The notes beneath the pieces were generated by a model that saw nothing but the letters and a program-made list of their open reading frames with translations, did no database searches and was not told the DNA's origin. The position numbers were made by a program, and so were the translations under genes. From Nitrospirota bacterium (GTDB taxonomy: Bacteria > Nitrospirota > Thermodesulfovibrionia > Thermodesulfovibrionales > UBA6898), in NCBI GenBank assembly GCA_016215155.1, contig JACRLQ010000053.1:1-33354 (forward strand): 33,354 bases of DNA, given 5' to 3'. Positions 8,750 through 33,037 of this stretch are shown here, in pieces (position 1 is the first letter of the stretch; the number at the start of each line of letters is the position of its first letter).

Positions 8750-9055
8750 TCATCTCTTTTGTTCCCCAATTTCATCTGTTGGCAGGATTTGTTTTCCGTG
8801 CCGTATCGTAAGAATAGAGACTTGCTTTTCTTCTATCCGGTAAATAATTCTGTAATTACCATATATTAATTCTTTAATTTTCTGACTATTTATTTCCGGC
8901 ACTGTTCGACCGCTTTCAGGAAACGACTTTAGTTGTTCGACTTTGGCAAAAACCGTATCAACCCAGTTTTCCGCCGCAATAATGTTATCTTGGGCTATAT
9001 ATTTTGCAATTTCAGCCGCTCTGTCTATTGCAAGAGGAGACCAAACGACTTTCAT
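8750..9055 (-). CDS. RelE/ParE-family type II toxin
   Basis: Small toxin of 101 aa. The fold signature is WSPLAIDRAAEIAKYIAQDN, then FPESGRTVPEI, the core strand KELIYGNYRIIYRIEEKQVSILTIRHGKQ. The PESGR-x(n)-YRI-Y pattern fits the ParE-like branch, whose known members inhibit gyrase, better than the ribosome-dependent RelE branch, but the target cannot be read from the sequence. It overlaps the upstream antitoxin by 4 nt, the usual translational coupling for such pairs. The module is AT-richer than the flanking housekeeping genes, in line with acquisition by transfer. Confidence 0.9.
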   Translation of the reverse strand: MKVVWSPLAIDRAAEIAKYIAQDNIIAAENWVDTVFAKVEQLKSFPESGRTVPEINSQKIKELIYGNYRIIYRIEEKQVSILTIRHGKQILPTDEIGEQKR

Positions 9056-9333
9056 TGCTTAATCTTGCCAAGCACAGCTGCTTTAGCATTGCTGTGTGTA
9101 ATTCCCTGCCCGCTTTCGATTTGACTAATCGATGTTTGAATATCCTGAAGGAGTTCAATCTTATCCTGCATTGATTCGAATTCGTCAGCGTCAAGCAAAA
9201 CAGCGACACCTTTTCCGTGTTGTGTAATTATAAGTGGACGTTTTGTAGCATGTATCTGTTTAATAAAGGAAGCAATGCCAGTTCTAAATTCGGACATCGG
9301 CCTGATATCCTCATTTATTTTCAATCTTTTCAT
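9052..9333 (-). CDS. Phd/YefM-family antitoxin
   Basis: Antitoxin of 93 aa that should bind and neutralise the adjacent ParE-like toxin and repress their shared promoter. The N-terminal DNA-binding part, INEDIRPMSEFRTGIASFIKQI, followed by RPLIITQHGKGVAVLLDADEFESM, is a clear Phd/YefM pattern; the C-terminal tail is the probable toxin-wrapping segment. The start is fixed by a good Shine-Dalgarno sequence (GAGGTGAT, complement of 9336-9343). Promoter and palindromic operator lie directly upstream. Confidence 0.9.
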   Translation of the reverse strand: MKRLKINEDIRPMSEFRTGIASFIKQIHATKRPLIITQHGKGVAVLLDADEFESMQDKIELLQDIQTSISQIESGQGITHSNAKAAVLGKIKQ

Positions 9334-13390: not shown

Positions 13391-14692
13391 TCACAGGATT
13401 TTTCTCAGGTCCACAACCCTCTTTGCCTTGCCCTCGCTTCTTTCGAGGGTCTTTTTCTCGACGAGTTTCACCTCGACCCCTATGCCCAGTTCGGAGGCAA
13501 GCCTGCTTTTAATCAGCTTTATAAGCTCATTTTGTTTCCTCATCTCGTCAAAGAAGATAGACTCCGATACCTCGACCTGCACCGTTACGTCATCGAGAGG
13601 CCCCTTGCGGTCTATGATTATCTGATAGTGGGGCTCCGTGCCCTCTATGGCAAACAGGACACCCTCTATCTGGGACGGAAATACGTTTACCCCCTTTATT
13701 ATGAGCATATCATCCGTGCGTCCCATCACCCTCGACATCCTGAGCGTCTTTCTGCCGCAGGGGCATGGCTCGGGGATGAACCTGGTCAGGTCCCGTGTCC
13801 TGAAGCGGATTACAGGGAAGGCCTCCTTCGTCAGAGTGGTGATCACAAGTTCCCCGACCTCGCCCGGCGCGACAGGCCCGAGCGTCTCCGGATCGATTAT
13901 CTCGGCAAGAAAATGGTCCTCGTTTATATGTAGACCGTTTCGCTCAAGACACTCCCCGGCGACCCCGGGGCCCATCACCTCGCTTAAGCCATAATTATCG
14001 GTCGCCGTGATCCTCAGCTTTTCCTGGATCTCCTGCCTCATCTTCTCGGACCAGGGCTCGGCCCCGAAAAGGCCGTATTTAAGGGAAAGAGAATTGATAT
14101 CGATCCCCATTTCCCTTATCGTCTCCGCGATGAGCAGCGCGTAGCTTGGGGTGCAGACCAGCGCCGTGGTCTTGAAGTCCTGCATGATCTTGATCTGGCG
14201 CGCGGTGTTGCCGCTCGAAATCGGTATTACCGAGGCCCCTATCCGCTCGGCGCCGTAATGGAGCCCGAAACCGCCTGTAAAAAGGCTGTACCCGAAGGCT
14301 ATCTGCACGACGTCGTCCTTCGTCACACCCGCCGCGGTCAGCACCCTCGCTACGAGATTGGACCAGGTCTTGATGTCGTTTCTCGTATAGCCGACCACCG
14401 TGGACATTCCGGTCGTGCCCGAAGAGGCGTGAATGCGCACAACATCCCGGAGGGGCACCGCGAAAAGCCCGTAAGGATAGCTGTCTCTCAAGTCATTTTT
14501 GACCGTAAAGGGCAGCTTCGAGAGGTCTTCAAGGGAACGAAAATCATCGGGGTCTATGCCAAGGGTATCGAATTTTTTTCTGTAGAAAGGGACATTCATA
14601 TACACCCGCGACAACGTGGCCTGCAGCTGTTCGAGCTGAAGCTGCCTGAGTTCGTCCCGGTCCATGCATTCTTTTTCAGGTTCCCAGTACAT
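13391..14692 (-). CDS. paaK: Phenylacetate-CoA ligase family (arylacetate-CoA ligase), copy 1
   Basis: AMP-forming ligase making arylacetyl-CoA from an arylacetate, ATP and CoA. The 433 aa are normal PaaK length. Motifs: [19 protein letters not shown] (phosphate loop), [11 protein letters not shown], the adenine motif [26 protein letters not shown], and a C-terminal [20 protein letters not shown] with the terminal lysine segment [11 protein letters not shown] cysteine pair in PCPCGRKT is shared by this family. GGAGG precedes the ATG. It is the last gene of the ten-gene cluster and a close paralogue of the copy at 20130-21431. Substrate range (phenyl-, indole- or hydroxyphenylacetate) cannot be told. 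Confidence 0.92.
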
Positions 14693-20129: not shown

Positions 20130-21431
20130 TTAAAGTTTTCTCTTATCTATGACCCGCTGGGCCTTGCCTTCACTTCTTTGGATCGCCCTGGGCTCGACCA
20201 GTTTCACCCTGCATGAAATCCCGAGCAGGTCCTTTATCTCTCTCTCTATCTTCCTGCTTAATTTTTCGAGGACCTTCACCTCATCAGAGAAGATGTTCTC
20301 GCTCACCTCGACCTGGACCTCGACGACGTCAAGAGAGCCCTGTCTGTCGACTATGATCTGATAGTGGGGCTCGACCCCCTCGATGCTCATAAGCACATGC
20401 TCTATCTGTGACGGGAAGACGTTTACCCCCCTTATTATCAGCATATCATCGGTCCTGCCGGTTATCCTCTCCATCCTGTAGAAGGTCCTGCCGCAGGAGC
20501 ACGGTTCGGGGATGAGCCTGGATATGTCCTTTGTGCGGTACCGTATTACCGGAAAGGCCTCTTTTGTGAGCGTGGTAAATACAAGCTCGCCGTGCCGCCC
20601 CAGGGGCATGGGTTCCATCGTCTTTGGATCGACTATCTCGGGAATGAAATAATCCTCGAATATGTGGAGTCCGTGCTGTTCCTCTATGCACTCGCTGGCT
20701 ACGCCGGGCCCCATCACCTCGCTCAGGCCGAAGATGTCTATGGCCTTCAGATTCAGCCTTTTTTGTATCTCCTCCCTCATATTTTCGGACCAGGGCTCGG
20801 CGCCGAAAAGCCCGACGCGGAGCTTAAGCGACGACGGGTCCACCTTCATCTCTTTCATGACATCGGCAATGTTGAGCGCATACGAAGGCGTGCACATCAG
20901 TACGGTCGAGCCGAAGTCCTGCATGATCATGATCTGTCTTTTGGAATTCCCGCCGGATATCGGGATGACCGCCGCGCCAAGCCTCTCGGCCCCGTAATGC
21001 GCGCCGAGACCGCCCGTAAAGAGGCCGTAGCCGTACGCGTTATGGACGACATCCCCCTTGTGGGCGCCTCCGGCGGAAAGCGTCCTTGCCATAAGTTCCG
21101 CCCATGAGTCGATATCGCGCCTCGTGTAGCCGACGACCGTGGGCTTTCCGGTGGTGCCTGAGGACGCATGGATCCTTACGACCTGATCGAACGGCACGGC
21201 AAAGAGCCCGAAGGGATAATTTATCCTCAGGTCTTCCTTGGTAGTAAAGGGCAGCCTGCCCAGGTCCTTAAGCGTCCTGATATCCGCCGGCCTTACCCCA
21301 GCCTCCTCCATCTTGTTACGGTAATAAGGGACCGCGGCATGGACACGCTCGATCTGGTGCTGAAGCCTTTTTAACTGAAGCGCCTCAAGGGCCTCGCGCG
21401 GAAGTGTTTCAAACTCCTCATTCCATATCAT
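20130..21431 (-). CDS. paaK: Phenylacetate-CoA ligase family (arylacetate-CoA ligase), copy 2
   Basis: AMP-forming arylacetate-CoA ligase, 433 aa from an ATG at 21431 preceded by GAGGAG; a longer frame from 21461 is open but lacks a ribosome-binding site. The same motifs as copy 1 are present: [19 protein letters not shown] (with the lysine that copy 1 lacks), [65 protein letters not shown] and [10 protein letters not shown]. It lies 44 nt after iorB, the likely first partner. The two copies differ throughout, so they are old paralogues and may have different aryl substrates. Confidence 0.93.
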
Positions 21432-21475
21432 GACTGTCTCCTCGGCATCACTTATTTTCACCCGGCATCGACATA

Positions 21476-22075: not shown

Positions 22076-23893
22076 TTACTTTTCCGCCCCGACAATGGCC
22101 TTGAATTTACAGAGCGTCACGCACTGACCGCAGCCGTCGCACATCACGGCGTTTATAGTGGAATGACCCTTCTGAGACTCTTTATATCCAAGCTTCTTTG
22201 CCTCTTCGGCCGTAAGCGGCGCCCACTCGATGGCAGGGCAGCCGATCTTCAGGCAAGACCTGCATCCGGTACAGTTATCTCCTATCACCATATAGCGCTT
22301 TTTGTCCTTACGCCTTTTCATCTCAGGGAGAAGCACGCAGGGGGCCTGTGTAATGATCACGGACGGTTCAGGTCTTTCGATCTCCTGCCTCAGCACCTTT
22401 TCCGCGTTATCCATATCATGAGGATTGACGGTAACCACATGCTTTATGCCGATGGCCCCGCAGAGCGCCGGGATATCGATGCCCGTGCCGGCGTATCCTC
22501 CCAGGGTGACCCCTGTGGAGGGATTTGGCTGATGGCCGGTCATGCCTGTGGTGCTGTTGTCAAGAATGATCACCGTAGTAAACCCGCGGTTATATACGAC
22601 ATCGATAAGCCCGGTGATACCCGAGTGCATAAAGGTGGAATCGCCTATGACCGCCACAATCTTCCCGAGGCTGTCCTTCCCCAGGGCCTTTTCCATGCCG
22701 AAGGCGGTGCCGATGCTCGCGCCCATACAGACACAGGAGTCCATCGAGGAAAGCGGTTTGAGGGCCGCAAGGGTATAGCAGCCGATGTCTCCGGCCACAA
22801 AGACCTTGAGCCTGGAGATCGCGTGGAATATGCCCCTGTGAGGACATCCCGCGCAGAGGTTCGGCGGCCTCATGGGAACGGGGACCGGCTCGAAGAGGTC
22901 TCCTTCAGCACGGCCCGTAATAGCCTTCCTTAAGATATGGGAATTAAGCTCGCCCATCGCGGGGACAAGTTCCTTGCCTTTGCAGGCGATGCCCAGGGCC
23001 TTTACATGGGTCTCGATAAAGGGATCGAGTTCCTCGACAATAAACAGGTCCGTGACCTGAGAGGCAAAGTCCCTGATCATATCGTCAGGGAAAGGATAGA
23101 CCATGCCGAGTTTCAGCACCGAGGCGTCTGGAAAGGCCTCCTTCACATAAAGATAGGAGACACCGGAGGTTATAAACCCTGTTTTTTTATCACCCCATTC
23201 GGTCCTGTTGGCGGGGAATGTCCCGGCATACTCCCTGAGCCTGTTCATCCTCTTTTCGAGTTCCACCCTGCGCAGTCGGGCATGGCCGGGGAGCATCACG
23301 AACTTCTGGGGCATCTTCACTATACCCGGCTGGACCGATGATGTCTCCATCTCACCGGCGGCAACTATCCCCTTTACATGGGCGACCCTCGTCGTTGTCC
23401 GGAGAAGGACGGGGGTATCGAACTCTTCGCTGATCCTGTAGGCGACTTTGAGAAAATCTTTGGCCTCGGAGGCGTCCGAGGGCTCGAGCATCGGGACCTT
23501 CGCGGCATAGGCATAGTTTCTGTTGTCCTGCTCGTTTTGTGAACTGTGCATCTCCGGGTCGTCGGCAGTAACTATGACGAGGCCGCCCCTGACACCGGTG
23601 TAGGCTGCTGTAAAAAGCGGGTCAGCGGCCACATTCAGCCCGACATGCTTCATGGTCGCCAGTGCCCTGGCCCCGGCAAAAGACGCCCCAAGGGCCACTT
23701 CGAGGGCCACTTTTTCATTCGGCGCCCATTCGGTATAGACCCCCTCATATCGGCAGAGGTTTTCGAGTATTTCGGTCGAGGGAGTGCCCGGATACGCGGA
23801 GGCGACCTTTACGCCGGCCTCATACGCACCTAACGCAAGCGCCTCATTACCGGAAAGCAGAACCTTATCGCCTGGATTACCCATTTTTTTCAT
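22076..23893 (-). CDS. iorA: Indolepyruvate:ferredoxin oxidoreductase alpha subunit
   Basis: Catalytic subunit of 605 aa. The N-terminal pyrimidine-binding domain (LLSGNEALALGAYEAGVKVASAYPGTPSTEI) is followed by NEKVALEVALGASFAGARAL, the TPP-binding domain (GDIGCYTL, MGASIGTAFGMEKALG, VIGDSTFMHSGITGLIDVVYN, LDNSTTGMTGHQPNPSTG), and a C-terminal two-[4Fe-4S] ferredoxin domain: CTGCRSCLKIGCPAIEW and CDGCGQCVTLCKF. The first cluster motif is C-x2-C-x2-C-x4-C with a shortened spacing, as in known IorA. It is the first gene of the cluster. The start has no Shine-Dalgarno sequence and follows a tandem 10-bp repeat. Confidence 0.95.
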   Translation of the reverse strand: MKKMGNPGDKVLLSGNEALALGAYEAGVKVASAYPGTPSTEILENLCRYEGVYTEWAPNEKVALEVALGASFAGARALATMKHVGLNVAADPLFTAAYTGVRGGLVIVTADDPEMHSSQNEQDNRNYAYAAKVPMLEPSDASEAKDFLKVAYRISEEFDTPVLLRTTTRVAHVKGIVAAGEMETSSVQPGIVKMPQKFVMLPGHARLRRVELEKRMNRLREYAGTFPANRTEWGDKKTGFITSGVSYLYVKEAFPDASVLKLGMVYPFPDDMIRDFASQVTDLFIVEELDPFIETHVKALGIACKGKELVPAMGELNSHILRKAITGRAEGDLFEPVPVPMRPPNLCAGCPHRGIFHAISRLKVFVAGDIGCYTLAALKPLSSMDSCVCMGASIGTAFGMEKALGKDSLGKIVAVIGDSTFMHSGITGLIDVVYNRGFTTVIILDNSTTGMTGHQPNPSTGVTLGGYAGTGIDIPALCGAIGIKHVVTVNPHDMDNAEKVLRQEIERPEPSVIITQAPCVLLPEMKRRKDKKRYMVIGDNCTGCRSCLKIGCPAIEWAPLTAEEAKKLGYKESQKGHSTINAVMCDGCGQCVTLCKFKAIVGAEK

Positions 23894-24008: not shown

Positions 24009-24016
24009 ATGTGGTA

Positions 24017-24496
24017 ATGAAAAAGATCCTTATAGTGGATGATCTCGACACCTATATACAGAGGGAGAGGTCCATATTGAACAGGTCGGATTTCAAGATC
24101 TTCACCGCCACGTCGGGTGAAGACGCGCTTGCCATACACCGGTCGGAACATATGGACATGGTCATCATAGACATGGACATGCCCGGGATGAGCGGAGACA
24201 AGCTCTGTTCGATCATCAGAAAGGACGAGAAGCTGAAAAATGTCTCCGTCGTCATGGTATGCAGCAACACCAGAGGTGATATCGAGAGGTCAAAGACATG
24301 CATGGCCAACGCCTACGTCACAAAACCCCTTAATACCGTGCAGTTTCTCATGACCGTAAGCAAGCTCCTCGACATACAGGAGAGGAAGAGCTACAGGGTG
24401 CTTATAAAGCTTTCGGTAAGCGGCAAGGCCAGGAGCGAGTCCTTCTTCTGCTATTCAAGGGAAGCGAGTCCTTCTTCTGCTATTCAAGGGACATAA
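24017..24496 (+). CDS. Response regulator receiver domain, PilZ output domain lost by frameshift
   Basis: Receiver domain protein. MKKILIVDDLDTYIQRE has the acidic pocket, Asp52 in VIIDMDMPGMSGD is the phospho-acceptor, VVMVCSNT holds the conserved Thr/Ser region and AYVTKPLNTVQFL the lysine. After about residue 125 the PilZ domain begins (YRVLIKLSVSGKARSESFFCYSR), but an exact 29-bp tandem duplication (24434-24491) shifts the frame and adds EASPSSAIQGT before a stop. Without one copy the frame would read CYSRDISSSGILIE and continue into 24511-24726. An in-frame GTG at 24011 is an alternative start. As it stands the output domain is not made. Confidence 0.85.
   Translation: MKKILIVDDLDTYIQRERSILNRSDFKIFTATSGEDALAIHRSEHMDMVIIDMDMPGMSGDKLCSIIRKDEKLKNVSVVMVCSNTRGDIERSKTCMANAYVTKPLNTVQFLMTVSKLLDIQERKSYRVLIKLSVSGKARSESFFCYSREASPSSAIQGT
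24434..24491 (+). repeat. Exact 29-bp tandem duplication causing a frameshift
   Basis: Unit AGCGAGTCCTTCTTCTGCTA followed by nine more bases occurs at 24434-24462 and identically at 24463-24491. Because 29 is not a multiple of three, the second copy shifts the receiver-PilZ gene out of frame; removing one copy restores a complete PilZ motif. The copies are identical, so the event is recent, phase-variable, or an assembly artefact. Confidence 0.95.
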
Positions 24497-24510
24497 GCTC
24501 CTCGGGCATA

Positions 24511-24726
24511 TTGATAGAGACGGACAAGGTCCTCGAAAAAGGCACTATTATTTCATGCTCATTTTTCCTGCCGAACTCCGAACGTATAGTGACGGATGCC
24601 GAGATCATGAGGGCCGTGCCGCTTGGAAACAAGACCTTTCAGTACGGCGCAAGGTTTACAAAGATAGACGCTCCTGCCAGGTCAGCGATAGACACCTTTG
24701 TCAGCAACGCAACGGGGAAAAAATAA
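24511..24726 (+). pseudogene. Out-of-frame PilZ domain remnant of the response regulator
   Basis: Seventy-one codons that continue the preceding gene in the frame lost through the 29-bp duplication. They encode IETDKVLEKGTIISCSFFLP and KTFQYGARFTKIDAPARSAI, the later strands of a PilZ domain. PilZ domains bind cyclic di-GMP through an R-x3-R plus D-x-S-x-x-G pair; here RDISSSG is complete only if one repeat copy is removed. The full protein would be a receiver-PilZ regulator of about 225 residues. No independent ribosome-binding site is visible at 24511, so it is probably not expressed on its own. Confidence 0.8.
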
Positions 24727-24741
24727 CGGGGACGTTCACGT

Positions 24742-26055
24742 TCATATCTTTATATGAAGCATCGGCAGTCCCAGCCTCTGCCTTTTATTCTCACCTTTAA
24801 CAAGGCTCACCTTTCTTTGCGCTGCATCACCCCTGTCCCCTTCATGCTGGGCCTGTGACTTCGTGGGCAGACTGGAACCATGATAAATGGTATGCTTGCC
24901 GAACTTCTCCGACAGCATATCTACGGTACAATAAAGCTTCGCCGTCTTTTCTATCTTTACCATGTCGTCAAAAAGGGAATACCGGACCTTGCTCCCCGGG
25001 ACAAGACCGGCCAGCACGACCCCGGTCTGGCGGTATAATATGTCCGGCCTGTATATCTGCCTGAACCCTTCCTTCAACGACGGAAGAAGTTCCGCGGGAT
25101 AGGCAGAGGGACGGTCGAGCCTGAGTTCAACGCCATTGCTTCTGAAATCCTGAGACCTGAGGAATATGACAAGACGGGCGGCGGCAAGGTCATATCTCCT
25201 TGCCTTGATGCAGGCATTTTCTAGATTTTTGGAAAGCTGGGCGAAGATAAACATCTCTTCGGAGGACGGAGGGGTGAAGGTCCTGACCTTGCTTATCGAC
25301 TGATAGGCGCTCTTTGCCTCCTTAACAACCGGATAGACGCTCCTGCCGTTTAGTTCATGCCAGATCTCCTGGTAAGGCTTTGACAGGTGCTTCAGTGCGA
25401 ACCCTTCATCCTTTAAAGCAAAATCGAGCGCGGTGACTATGCCGAATTTCCGGAGAAAAGCGGCCGTATTGGGGCCTATGCCCCAGACCTTTTCTATCGG
25501 CAGACGGCCCAGAAACAGGTGTATGTCCCTTCCCGGGATGAGAGTAAGACCCTGCGGTTTCATGTGCTTTGAACCTATCTTCGCCAGGACCTTCGACAGA
25601 CTCACCCCTACCGAGACCGTTATCCCCAGTTCCCTTTCGACCGTCTCCTGCATGCGCCGGGCAATAAGCTCGTAGGAACCGTGGAAACTCCTTCTGAGGC
25701 CCGTCAGATCGACAAAGGCCTCGTCTATCGAGTATTCCTCGACATCCGGTGAGAAACGTCTCAATATCTCGAACATCCGGACAGAAAAAAGGCTGTAGGT
25801 TTCATAATCGGAGGGGAGTATGACGGCGTCAGGGCAGAGTTTTTTTACCTCCCAAAGCGGCACGCCGCGTGACACCCCCTTTGCCTTTGCCTCATAGCTG
25901 GCGGCGGACACAATGCCGCGCTCCTTCCCGGTTATTACCGGCCTGCCCCTTAGTTCAGGATGGATCGCCTGCTCGCAGGACGCAAAGAAGGCGTCGGCGT
26001 CAAGGTGGAGGACGGCCTGGGGCCAGGAATGGATGGTGAGGGGTTGGGTGGTCAT
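24742..26055 (-). CDS. dinB: Y-family translesion DNA polymerase (Pol IV/DinB-like)
   Basis: Error-prone polymerase copying past DNA damage. The 437-aa sequence has the metal-binding aspartate in LHLDADAFFASCEQ (about 16-29), the finger motif IVSAASYEAKAKGV, the catalytic pair in YSIDEAFVDLTG, VGVSLSKVLAKIGSKHMKP, and the HhH segment KVWGIGPNTAAFLRKFGI. The little-finger domain follows (about 245-360). The C-terminal 60 residues (SSLPTKSQAQHEGDRGDAAQ onward) are low-complexity and lack a clear beta-clamp motif. It begins 9 nt after the helicase stop on the same strand, so both are probably one transcript. It resembles the DinB/UmuC group; no umuD lies next to it. Confidence 0.93.
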   Translation of the reverse strand: MTTQPLTIHSWPQAVLHLDADAFFASCEQAIHPELRGRPVITGKERGIVSAASYEAKAKGVSRGVPLWEVKKLCPDAVILPSDYETYSLFSVRMFEILRRFSPDVEEYSIDEAFVDLTGLRRSFHGSYELIARRMQETVERELGITVSVGVSLSKVLAKIGSKHMKPQGLTLIPGRDIHLFLGRLPIEKVWGIGPNTAAFLRKFGIVTALDFALKDEGFALKHLSKPYQEIWHELNGRSVYPVVKEAKSAYQSISKVRTFTPPSSEEMFIFAQLSKNLENACIKARRYDLAAARLVIFLRSQDFRSNGVELRLDRPSAYPAELLPSLKEGFRQIYRPDILYRQTGVVLAGLVPGSKVRYSLFDDMVKIEKTAKLYCTVDMLSEKFGKHTIYHGSSLPTKSQAQHEGDRGDAAQRKVSLVKGENKRQRLGLPMLHIKI

Positions 26056-26064
26056 TAGAAATGC

Positions 26065-28899
26065 TCAACTATTTTCATTGTTGGACTGCAGGAATTCGGA
26101 AGCTTCTTGGATATACCGTCCGGCCTCCGAATTCGGACCGGCAAAAAGCCCGATGTTTGCATGGCGGTATATATCAACCCAATCCTCTTTTTGCAGTATG
26201 GCTATTTTCGGATTCAGAATATATTTGCCGGTCTTCTTGCGCACAAACAGTTTTCTGCCGTAAGCGTTGGCGCTGCCGGTTTCATTTTTTGAAAGCAGCG
26301 ATGAAATATATGCCCGCTTTTTTCTATAGTCCGGCAGTACGCTGTCAGACAGCAGCCCTGACACTCTCGCAATCTGAGGTGCGGTAAGCGGAATGAAACC
26401 GATGTATTTCCCGTTGATCCCATTGCGCAGCCCGGTCAGAAAAAGGTGGAAGAGCAGGAATTCCCCCTGGACGGAGTCGAGCTTTATCAGGCGGCCGTCC
26501 ACTTTCAGGCTCACGCTGGAAGGGGCAAGAATCTCATGCACCCTTGGAAATAATTCAGATGCGAACTTGTTGTCCTGAGATGCTCTCTGCAGCGCGCCCT
26601 GCCACGCGGTAAGGCCGTAATTATCGGTCAGTTCGGCGTCCGCCCCGGCGGACAAAAGCTCTTTGACCAGGGCAATATTGCCTGCAAGGGCCGCGAGCAT
26701 CAAAGGGGTTTTATTGAAGGCGGTGCGATGGTCAACACCGTATCGCCCGCACTCATTTAAGACGTCCTTGAAAAATTTCCCGCTGTATCTTTGAAGGAAG
26801 CTTGCAACAAACTGGGAGCGTTGGGGCTCGTAGATCTCCGCTTTGAAAAAACGATGTCCGGACACAACATGGGAGAACTTTTTGGCCTTCTCAAAACCAT
26901 GCTCGGCAAGGGCCTCCATCAAAAGACGGTCATTGTAAAACAGGCTGTAATCGAACACTGCCTTTCTTGGTTTTTGCGAAATCTCCTTAGGGTCGCATGC
27001 GCGCTCAAGCAGCATTGCAATCCTCTCCGGGGCATGGACATCCCAGGGCACAGTCTGGACCTTCAGTATGTCCCGCCTTATCTCGTCGGCCTGTTCCTGC
27101 CGGCCCTGCTGTTCAAGCCTGTGGGCCTCGGCCTGCCATTCTTCCATGCTGGACTGATTTACTTCCATCGTCACCGTTTCCTGTGCATTCTTTACCCCGA
27201 GCATCCGGATCAAAAGGTGATCGGTGTCGCTTTCGATCAAATAAAGTTTTTGTACTGCGCGCGTGACGGCAACATAAAGGGAATTGATGAAAAATTTATA
27301 TACCTCGTGAGCTTTGTCCTTTTTGTCGCGTGCCCGCATATACCCGCGCTCCGCCTCAAGGTCTTCAGGACTGACCCCGTTGATTATCTCGTTAAAACTG
27401 GTCCTCTCGTTCGAGACGAAGTTCACCAGGACCACGTTTTCGTATTCAAGCCCCTTTGCCTCCTGGACGCTGAACAGCAGTGGGGTATCAAAAAACTGTC
27501 TCACTCCGGCCTTGTCCTCCTCGCGCATAACCAGCACGGCAAATTTGGTGGAGCGTCTCGTCTTTTGGTTCAGCTCCTTCTTCGCCCTGTCCGTATCTTT
27601 CACAAAAATAATCTCCCCTGACTGTTCTGACAGGCTTTTCATAAGGTAGCTGCTCTCCCGGTCAATGGAGCCGAAGCGTTTCTGTCTGATCCTCAGGAGT
27701 TTATTCGCAAGGTCTGTCACCGGTACGGAATTACGAAAATTGGACTGCAGAACCCGGGTCAGTTTCCGGACTTCCGCTGTTTCGTCGTTATAAAACATTG
27801 CCTTGATATTGCCCCAGGAGAAGAAGTTAGGATGGACGACCTGGTTTGAATCCCCGCACAAAATAAAATCACCGGCCTTCTTCAGACTCCTCAAAATAAG
27901 CTTCAGTTGAACGTTTGTTATGTCCTGCACCTCATCGACGACAATGAAGTCGTATGCCGGACGGACATGTCCGAGATAATCGTGAGCAAGAATATTCGGG
28001 TCATAGTAACCGTTGTCTTTGAGAAAGGCGAGATATTTTTCAAACAGGGTGTAAACGAGTTCACGCTCGTTATCGAGATATATGGACTGCCGGACCCCAA
28101 GGTCCATATAGTCCTCCCGGCTAAGCCATGGCTTGTCAATAATGGAGCCGGTCATCACCCCCCGGAACTCCTCATATAAGCGGTGGGCATCAGAGACGCG
28201 CTGCTGTTTCGGGAAGCGCAGCAGCCACCCGGAAAAGACCTTGAATGAGATTTCCCTGCCTTCAGGGACGCGCATCGTCTCGATGAATTCCCTGAAGGAC
28301 AGGAAGGAGATCTCCTGGTCATCATTTTGATAGTGGTGGGAATAATAAATATTCCGTGAATTGTCCGCGAGGTATCGGGACAGCGTAACATAAAGTACCT
28401 GCCCATGCGCCCTCTTCATCTTTTCGAGGGTGAGCGCGGTTTTTCCGCTTCCTGCAGGCCCGATGATAATGAGCGGCGACGGAAGCTGAAATATATCCTG
28501 CTGTTCCGGGTCGAAGGAGATCACCTTGTCGAGAAGGTGGACGCGATTGCTGGAAGGATTGACATAGACAAGAGCAGGCAGCTTTTCCTTTTCGAGACAG
28601 GATGCTTCAAAGGCCGGTATCTTTGCTTCATCTATCCGTGCGCCCCTCAGAAATTTGGATTTATCATAGGCATGATTGAGCACCACCTCAAGGGCCAGGG
28701 CATAACGTGTCCCCTCGTAAGTCACAATTCTGAAAAGCAGGCGGTTACTGTCGTCGAGCTTAGCCCTGTAGAGGTCATGGTCCGCCAATTTCTTGACCTC
28801 CGCTGAATGGAAGTCGTCTCTTTCGAGAAAACCGATGAGTTTTTCGTATTGCCGACGGACCCTTGATATGTCAAGGTCGTTATATTCGAGAATTTTCAT
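26065..28899 (-). CDS. UvrD-like SF1 helicase with RelE-like N-terminus and ankyrin repeats
   Basis: Multidomain protein of 944 aa. Residues 1-90 resemble a RelE/ParE-type fold (KKLADHDLYRAKLDDSNRLLFRI, then LALEVVLNHAYDKSKFLRG). A UvrD/Rep-type superfamily 1 helicase core follows: Walker A GPAGSGKT (147-154), Walker B VVDEVQD (320-326), VLQSNFRNS, VQEAKGLEYENVVLVNF, and motif VI LYVAVTRAVQKLYLIE (about 539-554). About 720-770 is an ankyrin-type repeat (TPLMLAALAGNIALVKELLS, then AGADAELTDNYGLTA). The last 170 residues look like a winged-helix domain ending RKKTGKYILNP. It overlaps the BRO-N gene by 4 nt and precedes dinB by 9 nt. DNA repair, plasmid control or anti-phage defence are all possible; none is shown. 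Confidence 0.85.
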   Translation of the reverse strand: MKILEYNDLDISRVRRQYEKLIGFLERDDFHSAEVKKLADHDLYRAKLDDSNRLLFRIVTYEGTRYALALEVVLNHAYDKSKFLRGARIDEAKIPAFEASCLEKEKLPALVYVNPSSNRVHLLDKVISFDPEQQDIFQLPSPLIIIGPAGSGKTALTLEKMKRAHGQVLYVTLSRYLADNSRNIYYSHHYQNDDQEISFLSFREFIETMRVPEGREISFKVFSGWLLRFPKQQRVSDAHRLYEEFRGVMTGSIIDKPWLSREDYMDLGVRQSIYLDNERELVYTLFEKYLAFLKDNGYYDPNILAHDYLGHVRPAYDFIVVDEVQDITNVQLKLILRSLKKAGDFILCGDSNQVVHPNFFSWGNIKAMFYNDETAEVRKLTRVLQSNFRNSVPVTDLANKLLRIRQKRFGSIDRESSYLMKSLSEQSGEIIFVKDTDRAKKELNQKTRRSTKFAVLVMREEDKAGVRQFFDTPLLFSVQEAKGLEYENVVLVNFVSNERTSFNEIINGVSPEDLEAERGYMRARDKKDKAHEVYKFFINSLYVAVTRAVQKLYLIESDTDHLLIRMLGVKNAQETVTMEVNQSSMEEWQAEAHRLEQQGRQEQADEIRRDILKVQTVPWDVHAPERIAMLLERACDPKEISQKPRKAVFDYSLFYNDRLLMEALAEHGFEKAKKFSHVVSGHRFFKAEIYEPQRSQFVASFLQRYSGKFFKDVLNECGRYGVDHRTAFNKTPLMLAALAGNIALVKELLSAGADAELTDNYGLTAWQGALQRASQDNKFASELFPRVHEILAPSSVSLKVDGRLIKLDSVQGEFLLFHLFLTGLRNGINGKYIGFIPLTAPQIARVSGLLSDSVLPDYRKKRAYISSLLSKNETGSANAYGRKLFVRKKTGKYILNPKIAILQKEDWVDIYRHANIGLFAGPNSEAGRYIQEASEFLQSNNENS

Positions 28900-29741
28900 G
28901 TTTTTGGGGGTAATGACTTCTTTACAGCCGAAGGTAGGAAGTTCTCTCCGTTTATAATCTTTTTTCCTGTTTTTGCTTCCAGCTCACGCCTTGCCTTTTT
29001 AGCGATCCCGCCGCCTTTCTTGCCGGCAACCTTGTTTTCTTTCATGCCGACGGCCTTCATGGTCTCAGCTATTTGACGGGTTGAAAGTTCGGCAAGTGCG
29101 GTGAAAATCAGTTCGGCTTCGCTCATATGATCTCTAAGATTCTGAGTTTTCAGACCCTTCATTTCCTTGTGCTTTTTTACGGACACATCCGCCCATTCCT
29201 GATGAATAATATTCGTCAGAATGGCGTATTCCTCTTCCTCTTTAATGTCATGATCTTTCCAATAATCCGTCAGCTTGTTTCGGGTCTCCTGCCCCATCAT
29301 CCGCTGCTGTATCCATTTTTCGCTTCTCCCATGCTGTTGCCAATATTCCCGCGCCCGGTCTAAAGACCGCACAGGGTCTGCCATGTCCTGCATCCGTTCA
29401 TAGCCGACCTTAGCCAGCCACAGTTTGATCGGCTCCGCCTTAGGGCTGGGAACTGACTGGATGAGACGAAGCAGTGTTTCCGGATCAGCAACGTCGGTAA
29501 GGCGCATTTTGCCGTCATCGGCCATCAATTTCAACTGGTGACAATTTGTCACCGTTTGGCTTCCTTCTTTTTTCAGCCGTTCCTTCAGCTTGTTCCAGTA
29601 CTTCCGCGAAGTCTGATAATCGGGCTGTTGAATTAACGCCTGAATAATATCCACTACGGAGAAATACCAAGTTTCGGATTCCTCGTCATATATTCTGCGG
29701 ATATGGTAGTTTTCAAATACAGCAAGCGAGTTTTCTTTCAT
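28896..29741 (-). CDS. BRO-N domain protein (phage antirepressor/DinD-like)
   Basis: Protein of 281 aa from an ATG at 29741, preceded by an AGAGG; an in-frame ATG 12 codons earlier is less likely. The N-terminal BRO-N domain reads NYHIRRIYDEESETWYFSVV, then DIIQALIQ and WNKLKERLKKEG, continuing MRLTDVADPETLLRLIQSVP, SPKAEPIKLWLAKVGYERMQ. The C-terminal half (YAILTNIIHQEWADVSVKKH, AELIFTALAELSTRQIAETM, KKARRELEAKTGKKI) matches the conserved bacterial branch of BRO proteins and DNA-damage-inducible DinD-like proteins. BRO-N domains bind DNA and often act as phage regulators. Its stop overlaps the helicase start by 4 nt, so it is the first gene of a three-gene unit. No SOS box was seen upstream. 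Confidence 0.88.
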   Translation of the reverse strand: MKENSLAVFENYHIRRIYDEESETWYFSVVDIIQALIQQPDYQTSRKYWNKLKERLKKEGSQTVTNCHQLKLMADDGKMRLTDVADPETLLRLIQSVPSPKAEPIKLWLAKVGYERMQDMADPVRSLDRAREYWQQHGRSEKWIQQRMMGQETRNKLTDYWKDHDIKEEEEYAILTNIIHQEWADVSVKKHKEMKGLKTQNLRDHMSEAELIFTALAELSTRQIAETMKAVGMKENKVAGKKGGGIAKKARRELEAKTGKKIINGENFLPSAVKKSLPPKT

Positions 29742-29823
29742 ATTTTGCCTCTTATGCCGATAATGGTCATGTTTCATGTGTGTGTAATTGAAAAACTTTT
29801 TAAAAAAATGAAACTACTTTCTT

Positions 29824-30570
29824 TTATTCATAACCATGAATTGCTTCTCTCCGTTCGTTTTTTAATGCCCGTTCAAGATTTTTCAGAGCTTTGGCTTTTC
29901 CAATTTCTCCGATTTTTTGTATCCTTGGATCATCATTAGATAAAAGTCTGTCATATCTGGCAATCCAACGGTTCCACATATCTGATTCCTTCCCACTGAA
30001 AGACCATCTTGAAAAAATTACATCCTCAATATCCTCATGGGCATATCCAGCATCAAGAGCCATTTTTGCTTTTGAAATCCAAGATTCATCTTCCCATGTT
30101 TCTTCACCGATTGCGTCCATTTTAAATCCATGCAAAAGTAAAAAATGCAAATCTTTTTTACTTTTGTCTCCAAGTAAAGTCTGATAAAGTTCTAAAGAAT
30201 CTCCCACAAGATAATTTACGATTTCGCCGCGCCAGGTATCATTTGGGACTATTTTTAATAATTCCTTTCGCTTATCGATGTCCAGAGCGGCAATTGCAGA
30301 TTTATAAACTTTCAGCATGTCATAATCTATCTCTCTTACAAGATGTGCTTTTAACCACTTAAAGGAAAGTTCTGGATCATTCTTTAATATTTCTCCAAGC
30401 CAAGATTCCGCATAATAAATGCGCAGTATTGCTCTTTCCCACTCTTCTTTTAGGCTATCACGAACCTTTCCTTTGGGGTCTCCTGCCCATTCTCCAATTG
30501 CTGCTTTGCCAGCTATTAAAGGATCAGAGTGTCGCAATAATAGGGCTAATGTCTTTTCCGGAATCTCCAT
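29824..30570 (-). CDS. C-terminal HEAT-like fragment of a large nuclease-NTPase-type protein
   Basis: Helical protein of 248 aa whose sequence (LLLRHSDPLIAGKAAIGEWA, ESWLGEILKNDPELSFKWLK, SFSGKESDMWNRWIARYDRL, NDDPRIQKIGEIG) matches the C-terminus I recall for a family of long proteins with an N-terminal nuclease-like domain, a P-loop NTPase and HEAT repeats. It starts inside the upstream fragment, in another frame (overlap 30546-30570), with no Shine-Dalgarno sequence, so it is probably a remnant. The stretch is AT-richer than the core genes. Whether the fragment is still made is not known. Confidence 0.6.
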   Translation of the reverse strand: MEIPEKTLALLLRHSDPLIAGKAAIGEWAGDPKGKVRDSLKEEWERAILRIYYAESWLGEILKNDPELSFKWLKAHLVREIDYDMLKVYKSAIAALDIDKRKELLKIVPNDTWRGEIVNYLVGDSLELYQTLLGDKSKKDLHFLLLHGFKMDAIGEETWEDESWISKAKMALDAGYAHEDIEDVIFSRWSFSGKESDMWNRWIARYDRLLSNDDPRIQKIGEIGKAKALKNLERALKNERREAIHGYE

Positions 30571-30821
30571 GCCACATAGGAAGTGATGTTCTTAGTTAAA
30601 TTTCCAATCACATCTTTGCCGATAGTACATATCAAAGGGAAAGGCGGCCCTTGCCCATCGGCAATTGCCCCGTCCATGCCTATATCACTTCCTCCGCGGA
30701 TAGGAACAAGAGTTGGGAATTCAACACGTAAAATATCAGAGCAACACTCCTCGAACAAATCCGGATCGAGGGGTTTCTTTAACGCTGCAATTATTTGTTG
30801 GTAAAAGGGGTCTCTTTTCAA
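30546..30821 (-). CDS. N-terminal restriction-endonuclease-like fragment of the same broken protein
   Basis: Ninety-one codons from a TTG at 30821, with AGAGGA upstream. The sequence LDPDLFEECCSDILRVEFPT, LVPIRGGSDIGMDGAI, GPPFPLICTIGKDVIGNLTK fits a PD-(D/E)xK-type nuclease fold: GGSDIGMDG carries the acidic residues and CTIGKD the expected lysine position. After SYVAWRFRKRH the frame stops, and the next in-frame family sequence is the C-terminal fragment in a different phase. The large central part (NTPase and most repeats) is absent, so this is an internally deleted gene. The intact family is Avs-like in outline; that comparison is from memory. Confidence 0.6.
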   Translation of the reverse strand: MKRDPFYQQIIAALKKPLDPDLFEECCSDILRVEFPTLVPIRGGSDIGMDGAIADGQGPPFPLICTIGKDVIGNLTKNITSYVAWRFRKRH

Positions 30822-30924: not shown

Positions 30925-31692
30925 TCAGGCACTCTCAAACGTTGCTGAACAGTAAAGATGTCCCACCGGCACAGCATCCCACGTCCTGCCTTGCAGCAAA
31001 CGGCCATTCTGTTTCTTCGCCCGCTTTTGTCCATCAGCTCCCCAGCCGCCCCACTGTTTAAAAAAGAAGGCGACGTCCTGCTGCTCACATTGCCGCTTCA
31101 CGTTCAACACCCATTCCTGCTTCATTGGTCTGGACATCGGCCCTGATTCACCGCCGACAATGACCCAGTGAATATGTTTCAGATTTATCCCGCCTAAATC
31201 CTCCAGCAGGGGTTCAACAGAAACGAAACGGACAAAAGCCGGGACCTGACGAAGCAAGTCAAGACGGGGGAGCCCGTGTTTCTTGTCTTCAACGGTCACT
31301 CCCAGCCAGGCATTGCGTGGCGGTTCGTAGTTCTTGAAAAACTTTGCCATCCGTTCGGCCCGTTTGGTAAGCACCTGAAAGGTATGTTGCGGGGCCTGCC
31401 TGATCACGTCGAAGACTTTGCGAATATAAGTGTCGGGTATTTCATCGTGAAAAATATCGCTCATTGAATTCACAAAATAAACGGTTGGCTTACTTCGCTT
31501 CAGAGGCTCATCAAGGCGATGAGGCAACAAGGTAAGTTTGAAGCCGTTTTCATATCCCTTCACCCTCATCGCTTTAAGTCTTCGGGCCATAACTTCCGCA
31601 TAGCAATGTGCGCAACCTGGAGAAATCTTGCTGCAACCCACAGTAGGGTTCCATGTTTGTTCTGTCCATTCTATTGAGGTTTTTGTGCTCAT
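30925..31692 (-). CDS. Phage Gp37/Gp68 family protein (DUF5131)
   Basis: Protein of 255 aa with the complete DUF5131 pattern: TSIEWTEQTWNPTVGCSKIS, PGCAHCYAE (cysteine motif C-x6-C-x2-C, radical-SAM-like), VNSMSDIFHDEIPD, QVLTKRAERM, WLGVTVED, RFVSVEPLLEDLG, IHWVIVGGESGP and FFFKQWGGW. The role is unknown; members occur in phages and mobile regions, often beside the three-Cys-motif partner protein, which I do not find here. The ATG has no strong ribosome-binding site. The C-terminal CSATFESA extension is slightly unusual. Confidence 0.92.
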   Translation of the reverse strand: MSTKTSIEWTEQTWNPTVGCSKISPGCAHCYAEVMARRLKAMRVKGYENGFKLTLLPHRLDEPLKRSKPTVYFVNSMSDIFHDEIPDTYIRKVFDVIRQAPQHTFQVLTKRAERMAKFFKNYEPPRNAWLGVTVEDKKHGLPRLDLLRQVPAFVRFVSVEPLLEDLGGINLKHIHWVIVGGESGPMSRPMKQEWVLNVKRQCEQQDVAFFFKQWGGWGADGQKRAKKQNGRLLQGRTWDAVPVGHLYCSATFESA

Positions 31693-31719: not shown

Positions 31720-32094
31720 TTACGCTTTACACTCACCAGCTAACCCCAATGGCCTCATGCGTATACGGTCTTCCTCAATTACACTAAAATGACCTGCCCA
31801 GTCGTTCCGTGATTCGATTGCGGTACTGATTATCTCTGTCGTATAAGCAGATGTCCTTCCGTAAATTCGAAAGAGGATAATCCCGCATTGTGCGGGGAGA
31901 CGTTGACTAAACGCGAGTTCTCCAAAATCTTTGTCAAAGGTTATCAGTATTCGTTCTTCTGCTATAGCCCGGGAAAGTATGTCTTCATCGTTGCTGCCGG
32001 GGCAATCCGTACGAACCCATACAATATCATGTTTTTTCTTTTTAAGCGCCTCAACAGCGTCGAGAGGAACATTTTCATTTGCCAAAAAACGCAT
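31720..32094 (-). CDS. DUF5615 PIN-like protein, probable toxin
   Basis: PIN-like protein of 124 aa, starting at an ATG (32094) preceded by GAGG at a suitable distance; an in-frame GTG at 32106 overlaps the upstream gene's stop. The motifs are RFLANENVPLDAVEALKKKK, HDIVWVRTD, NDEDILSRAIAEERILITFD and KDFGELAF: acidic residues at the PIN-type metal site (ANEN, TFDKDF). DUF5615 proteins pair with DUF433 proteins in toxin-antitoxin-like modules, and the partner is directly upstream here. RNase activity is inferred from family. Confidence 0.88.
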   Translation of the reverse strand: MRFLANENVPLDAVEALKKKKHDIVWVRTDCPGSNDEDILSRAIAEERILITFDKDFGELAFSQRLPAQCGIILFRIYGRTSAYTTEIISTAIESRNDWAGHFSVIEEDRIRMRPLGLAGECKA

Positions 32095-32102
32095 CCAGGT
32101 CC

Positions 32103-32336
32103 TCACACATGGCTCAGCGGATATACCTTCTCCAAGTGGATCATATCGCTGGCGTATTTAAGACACGCAATGATGTCCTCGTGGGTCAGGCCCGGATAAT
32201 TTCTCAATATCTCCGATTCCGGCCAGCCTTGAGCAAGCAGATCAATAATGAACTCGACAGCAATCCTGGTACCCTTAATTACCGGCTTCCCGACGAGGAC
32301 TTTCGGATCTATTGTGATACGCTCTTCCAAATTCAT
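32103..32336 (-). CDS. DUF433 protein, probable antitoxin of the DUF433/DUF5615 pair
   Basis: Small protein of 77 aa with the DUF433 signature: ITIDPKVLVGKPVIKGTRIA, VEFIIDLLAQGWPESEILRN, YPGLTHEDIIACLKYASD. This short HTH-like domain is the usual partner of DUF5615 PIN-like proteins, and its stop codon overlaps the longest possible start of that gene. The ATG at 32336 is preferred to an in-frame GTG at 32351 because a GGGGGTG tract lies upstream of it and the family begins here. Confidence 0.9.
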   Translation of the reverse strand: MNLEERITIDPKVLVGKPVIKGTRIAVEFIIDLLAQGWPESEILRNYPGLTHEDIIACLKYASDMIHLEKVYPLSHV

Positions 32337-32446
32337 AAACACCCCCTGCACTTACCTATTATGCTGCCGGAATCAGCCCGGCTGCAATCAGCTTTTTTTA
32401 TGATACGGCATCACAGCAAATTCATCAATATCCATATCCAATAATT

Positions 32447-33037
32447 CTATTTATATTTCCTTACCACCGCCGTCACGACCCCGGCTATCTTCAGTTCGCT
32501 GACGGGCCTGATGGGTTTATACTTTGGGTTCGCAGGGACAAGGGTTACGTCGCCGTCTCTTTTTTTAAGGTACTTCATCGTCCACTGGCCGTCGACCTCG
32601 GCGATAACGATATCGCCGCTTTTGGGCGGCTGCCCCTTATCGACGATGACCATATCCCCGGGCAGGATGCCTGCCTCCGACATCGAGTCGCCCGACACCC
32701 TCAGCATAAAGGTGGCCTGAGGGTTTTGTATCAGCATGTCGTCAAGGGAAAGCGTGTCCACCAGCTCTTCTTCTGCAGGGCTTGGGAACCCGGCCTCGAC
32801 CATCCCAAGTACCCTTACCGTGTTCGCCAATGTCTTTGGGATAAGCCTGCCTTTTGAGTCACGTTCGATTATATCGAGCTGTTCAAGCTTATTTATGAGC
32901 TTAGAGACGGCATTTTTGGAACGAAGTCCGACAATATCGCCGATCTCCGAAAAGCTGGGCATCCTTCCGCTGTCCCTGTAAAAACGGTGTATATCGTCTA
33001 TGCGTGACTTAAGCTTATCGTCCTTGATGGCCTTCAT
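32447..33037 (-). CDS. lexA: SOS repressor LexA
   Basis: Repressor of the DNA-damage response; RecA filaments trigger its self-cleavage. The 196-aa protein has an N-terminal winged HTH (MPSFSEIGDIVGLRSKNAVS, about 26-46) and a C-terminal S24 peptidase domain. The cleavage bond is Ala82-Gly83 in VEAGFPSP; the catalytic Ser118 is in RVSGDSMSEAG and Lys155 in WTMKYLKK. An SOS box of the GAAC-N4-GTTC type overlaps its promoter, indicating autorepression. There is no Shine-Dalgarno sequence before the ATG and a TATAAT ends 5 nt upstream, so the mRNA is probably leaderless. Confidence 0.95.
   Translation of the reverse strand: MKAIKDDKLKSRIDDIHRFYRDSGRMPSFSEIGDIVGLRSKNAVSKLINKLEQLDIIERDSKGRLIPKTLANTVRVLGMVEAGFPSPAEEELVDTLSLDDMLIQNPQATFMLRVSGDSMSEAGILPGDMVIVDKGQPPKSGDIVIAEVDGQWTMKYLKKRDGDVTLVPANPKYKPIRPVSELKIAGVVTAVVRKYK

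Follow-up and report, generated by a model that had tools for sequence, protein, structure and literature searches.

An exact 29-bp tandem duplication in a receiver-PilZ gene of a Nitrospirota draft genome: recent loss of function or assembly error

Spontaneous and reversible intragenic tandem duplications are described for the pneumococcal capsule genes cap3A, cap8E, and tts (Waite et al. 2001, 2003, as cited in PMC4022640 and PMC4243769). Phase variation through tandem-repeat copy number is known from promoter repeats of Mycobacterium tuberculosis (PMC12817950) and from simple-sequence contingency loci (PMC4235727). A two-copy duplication was found in the window, that is, the whole stretch of 33,354 nucleotides analyzed here, which is the entire contig C21 of a draft genome. 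Judged from its sequence, the affected gene encoded, before the duplication, a receiver-PilZ protein, a putative effector of cyclic di-GMP (c-di-GMP) of the response-regulator type. We consider the duplication to be either a recent loss-of-function mutation or an assembly error in this putative effector gene, and ordinary in kind. The parts of the locus are as follows.

24434–24462 (+): first copy of the 29-bp unit, AGCGAGTCCTTCTTCTGCTATTCAAGGGA, read from the sequence letters and by Tandem Repeats Finder.
24463–24491 (+): second copy of the unit, identical to the first and directly adjacent to it.
24017–24496 (+): truncated receiver protein of 159 aa, with the receiver domain, the RxxxR motif (R123-K-S-Y-R127), out-of-frame residues, and a stop.
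24463–24726 (+): 3′ remainder of the gene, stranded in the other frame, with the DxSxxG motif (DISSSG) and the PilZ barrel.

The exact tandem duplication described in an earlier note on this DNA was borne out by direct reading of the letters and by Tandem Repeats Finder, which reported at 24434–24491 a repeat of period 29 with 2.0 copies, 100% match, and no indels, the top-scoring of the 11 tandem repeats of the window. The same program detected neither a partial or extra third copy nor an array there. The chance expectation of an exact 29-bp tandem pair in the window is about 1e-10. The repeat can be read in one phase only, as the match does not continue into either flank, and therefore the junction is without microhomology. 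A search of the draft genome (3.43 Mb, 101 contigs) that allowed up to three mismatches returned the unit only at these two copies; a repeated element or a mobile-element target site was ruled out by this uniqueness.

The unit length is 3n+2, so that two copies shift the reading frame and the loss of one restores it. The shift falls in the PilZ domain, as had been proposed: the frame starting at 24017 ends at 24496, and the other frame is open to 24726. An in-frame GTG at 24011 precedes the ATG at 24017 and would add two residues if used as the start. In Pfam searches, Response_reg was found in the first piece, and the second piece covered only positions 17–100 of the PilZ profile, being N-terminally incomplete; the 159-aa product of the two-copy allele had no PilZ match, and the PilZ motifs were split over two frames. 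Removal of one copy rebuilds the predicted peptide CYSRDISSSG and gives a reading of 226 aa with a complete Response_reg domain (PF00072, 72.7 bits versus a cut-off of 30.2) and positions 1–100 of 102 of PilZ (PF07238, 58.9 bits versus a cut-off of 22.5). Alignment of this one-copy protein showed the receiver residues D8/D9, D52, and K103 (the acidic pair, the phospho-acceptor Asp, and the Lys) and both PilZ motifs, RxxxR (RKSYR) and D/NxSxxG (DISSSG). The duplication sits between these two c-di-GMP motifs, just before DISSSG. The two-copy product retains the receiver and RxxxR but not the PilZ barrel or the remainder of the c-di-GMP site; going by the known PilZ motifs, it probably can neither bind c-di-GMP nor serve as an effector.

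It is extremely unlikely that the gene functions in its split form, either as a stand-alone receiver with a separately started PilZ fragment or through a ribosomal frame change across the repeat. Both halves are open, and the 3′ frame offers a TTG at 24511, but this first downstream start lies 3′ of DxSxxG. The piece beginning there is unlikely to function as a PilZ protein, since both RxxxR and DxSxxG are missing from it. Inspection of the sequence by eye revealed no obvious Shine-Dalgarno sequence before this TTG and no slippery heptamer, and the receiver and PilZ domains are fused in all 12 aligned relatives.

Comparison with related genomes, suggested in the earlier note as a check, identified one copy as the ancestral state. 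The one-copy protein matched proteins of 29 relatives end to end over nearly the full length (40%–58% identity). Twelve of them, when aligned, had no gap, insertion, or repeat at the duplication site, and the motif FFCxSxxxSxSG ran through it unbroken; other relatives match straight through. Since all 12 aligned relatives are gapless at the site, the duplication is derived. It was also claimed to be very recent, and the exact identity of the copies agrees with this, as does the lack of any further lesion in the 3′ half of the gene. Receiver domains usually have Thr/Ser where the one-copy protein has Cys at position 82, and this Cys is invariant in all aligned members of the subfamily.

In about 22 of 60 relatives, three of them from the same family, the matches were at receiver level only. 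Because the presence of the receiver-PilZ subfamily in the order is patchy, its loss is tolerated, and on these genome comparisons the subfamily is apparently dispensable. No second full-length receiver-PilZ protein of this subfamily was found in the genome; a pattern scan of its contigs returned receiver-level matches only, because the generic N-terminal motif dominated the patterns.

The earlier note also offered a reversible slippage switch. In the form weighed here, slippage between the copies would alternately silence and restore the putative c-di-GMP effector within the population, and selection would maintain the repeat. The 3n+2 length fits such a switch, as the loss of one copy opens the frame for 226 aa. 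Precedents exist in the capsule phase variation of pneumococcus, which is reported to be reversible and to result from spontaneous exact intragenic duplications (Waite et al. 2001, 2003, as cited in PMC4022640 and PMC4243769), and in the within-population copy-number switching of promoter tandem repeats in M. tuberculosis (PMC12817950). However, any tandem repeat can revert by slippage, and reversibility in principle is therefore no evidence of a switch; no positive evidence for one was obtained. There are two copies only (2.0), with no array, partial third copy, or repeat in the aligned relatives, the unit is unique in the genome, the junction has zero microhomology, and the gene is patchily absent among relatives. 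Moreover, a contingency locus should keep a predisposing repeat in its on state, whereas the one-copy state here contains none. A programmed switch is improbable on this sequence, and we rate the reading as very unlikely.

The genes around the locus, together with other features of the window, are listed below.

22076–23893 (−): iorA, indolepyruvate ferredoxin oxidoreductase alpha subunit, intact divergent neighbor, TIGR03336 above the cut-off.
24742–26055 (−): DinB/Pol IV-type DNA polymerase, intact convergent neighbor with IMS and IMS_C, 73%–78% identical to relatives over the full length.
13391–14692 (−) and 20130–21461 (−): two diverged phenylacetate-CoA ligase-like genes, about 73% identical in DNA, on either side of an ABC transporter of the branched-chain amino acid type and adjoining iorAB (the putative ligase and transporter names are read from sequence).
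8750–9333 (−): pair of a ParE-type toxin and a Phd/YefM antitoxin.
26065–28899 (−): UvrD-like helicase of 944 aa with ankyrin repeats and weak matches to the PADLOC models GajB and AbiO, possibly a defense protein.
28896–29777 (−): Bro-N protein, strong match to the PADLOC candidate PDC-S13.
29824–30570 and 30546–30821 (−): overlapping frames without a family match, which could be pieces of one frameshifted gene.
30925–31692 (−): DUF5131 protein matching PDC-M30B/PDC-M41B in PADLOC.
31720–32351 (−): DUF5615 and DUF433 neighbors, likely a toxin-antitoxin-like pair.
32447–33037: LexA-like S24 peptidase regulator, adjoining the DUF5615/DUF433 pair.

The right end of the contig may be a defense or mobile region, as the helicase, Bro-N, and DUF5131 proteins suggest. 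In several relatives, the receiver-PilZ gene adjoins genes for a YIP1-type membrane protein and a CoA-transferase-like protein; here, iorA and the Pol IV-type gene enclose the receiver-PilZ gene, and YIP1 is encoded on a different contig (C25). Promoter-like and terminator-like matches at the locus were at shuffle level, and the window had no Rfam match.

The structure of the assembly bears on whether the duplication is real. Ten contig ends overlap other contigs by exactly 141 bp, which points to de Bruijn assembly with k = 141; we take this value to be the maximum k of the MEGAHIT default list and the assembler to be MEGAHIT-like. Short interior N-runs of 7–85 bp suggest a later scaffolding or gap-closing step. 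Both features are consistent with an artefact in which contig ends with a 29-bp overlap were abutted, or a gap was closed, and the overlap was kept, the organism itself having one copy and an intact gene. Such an origin is a serious possibility, although we would not call it probable. Looping in the de Bruijn graph was ruled out: no k-mer recurs at the junction of the one-copy sequence (extra match 0), so a maximum-k graph assembler cannot generate the repeat by looping from one-copy reads. Unlike a graph assembler alone, an untrimmed join of overlapping ends can yield a duplication without homology. Evidence against joining also comes from the assembly. None of the 10 N-gaps sampled had overlapping flanks, and no 141-bp tandem duplication was found, though careless joining of k-overlapping contigs would yield such duplications.

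A census of exact tandem duplications, counting units of at least 20 bp, was made in 1.65 Mb of the genome (about half), with gap letters excluded. It revealed seven exact two-copy duplications with units of 22, 29, 52, 56, 66, 77, and 92 bp and an extra match of 0–1 bp. The six others besides that in the receiver-PilZ gene (loci L113, L127, L130, L158, L161, and L181) are the following.

C1:4123: exact duplication of 52 bp.
C15:16199: exact duplication of 77 bp.
C18:550: exact duplication of 56 bp.
C25:950: exact duplication of 92 bp.
C28:16037: exact duplication of 66 bp in a nosL-like gene, the CxxC region being duplicated in frame.
C42:1728: exact duplication of 22 bp.

The controls, 1.98 Mb in total, comprised stretches of five relatives, short loci of other relatives, 80 loci of other genomes, and 0.4 Mb of Escherichia coli MG1655, and contained one duplication, a 2.4-copy array. 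The excess (7 in 1.65 Mb, compared with 1 in 1.98 Mb, p ~0.02, indicative only since the comparison was framed after the first batch), with the near absence of extra match at each site, is suggestive and could point to a joining artefact. However, the excess is not significant outside multicopy DNA (4 versus 1, p ~0.14, indicative only for the same reason). Three of the seven duplications, compared with 2 of 60 random sites, fall in multicopy DNA, which again agrees with misjoining, but the 29-bp site is in single-copy sequence. Every unit is shorter than 141 bp, in line with joins, although this limit is expected of real duplications as well. All seven units differ in length, ruling out a fixed-length artefact with the unit equal to some k.

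The positions of the seven duplications argue in the other direction. Four occupy non-coding or upstream sequence; the duplication in the nosL-like gene keeps the frame, another falls in a transposase gene, and the 29-bp duplication alone frameshifts a conserved gene. A stop-free frame of 150 codons or more covers about 85% of random positions, and therefore random joins should strike conserved genes more often, with the reservation that the numbers are small. Mostly harmless positions are expected if the duplications are real events filtered by selection.

The reading that we prefer, and regard as probable if only just, is that the duplication is real, a very recent one-off event by which a dispensable receiver-PilZ regulator was lost by chance through a frameshift. 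According to it, the 29-bp tandem duplication would have arisen in the PilZ half of the receiver-PilZ gene of this lineage, inactivating the gene, and would be carried in the DNA of the organism. Slippage may occasionally revert it, but the repeat would not be kept for reversion. The tolerated loss of the subfamily in about 22 of 60 relatives supports this reading, while the excess of duplications in the assembly counts against it.

The duplication may have originated by replication misalignment or by a template switch that needed no flanking homology. The zero microhomology speaks against simple slippage between short direct repeats. A hairpin was considered as well because the site is flanked by a 6-bp inverted repeat, AGGAGC/GCTCCT; however, with four pairs of this kind within 181 bp, chance is a sufficient explanation. 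The end-joining factor Ku (NHEJ) is one possible maker of homology-free duplications. Ku (PF02735) was not found in this genome and was present in all four congeners searched, an apparent lineage-specific loss; NHEJ fill-in of staggered breaks is disfavored by its absence. Template switching without homology and an assembly join are the candidates left. It is highly unlikely that the lineage has an unusual rate (~4 per Mb) of exact homology-free tandem duplications of 20–100 bp, perhaps tied to the apparent loss of Ku, which would be used or tolerated as reversible knock-outs.

If real, the duplication offers a snapshot of the loss of a regulator by a short duplication, a reversible class of mutation that may be poorly resolved in short-read assemblies. 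If it is an artefact, it cautions against calling pseudogenes or switches from exact two-copy duplications in a draft genome until the reads have been examined. In either case, the count of similar duplications per assembly could serve as a simple quality check.

With the known short-read assembly errors at tandem repeats (reviewed in PMC6868369), the locus would share a misjudged copy number; however, the usual error is collapse, and a false extra copy here needs an unmerged join. Like the loci with tandem-repeat phase variation (PMC12817950, PMC4235727), it has a unit whose number could change by slippage or recombination, but the known loci vary across strains or carry predisposing arrays, whereas here there are two copies in a coding region and none of the relatives has a repeat. 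The likeness to the pneumococcal capsule duplications is that of a spontaneous, inactivating duplication in a reading frame that in principle can be lost again. Switching there was seen experimentally in a selected surface trait, while here the evidence is one sequence of a regulator gene in a draft environmental genome. As in receiver-PilZ proteins (PF00072 and PF07238, with a weak TIGR02266 match), both domains and the RxxxR and DxSxxG motifs are present in the one-copy frame; this frame differs by the Cys in place of Thr/Ser at position 82, and the two-copy allele of the window terminates after the first PilZ motif and before the second.
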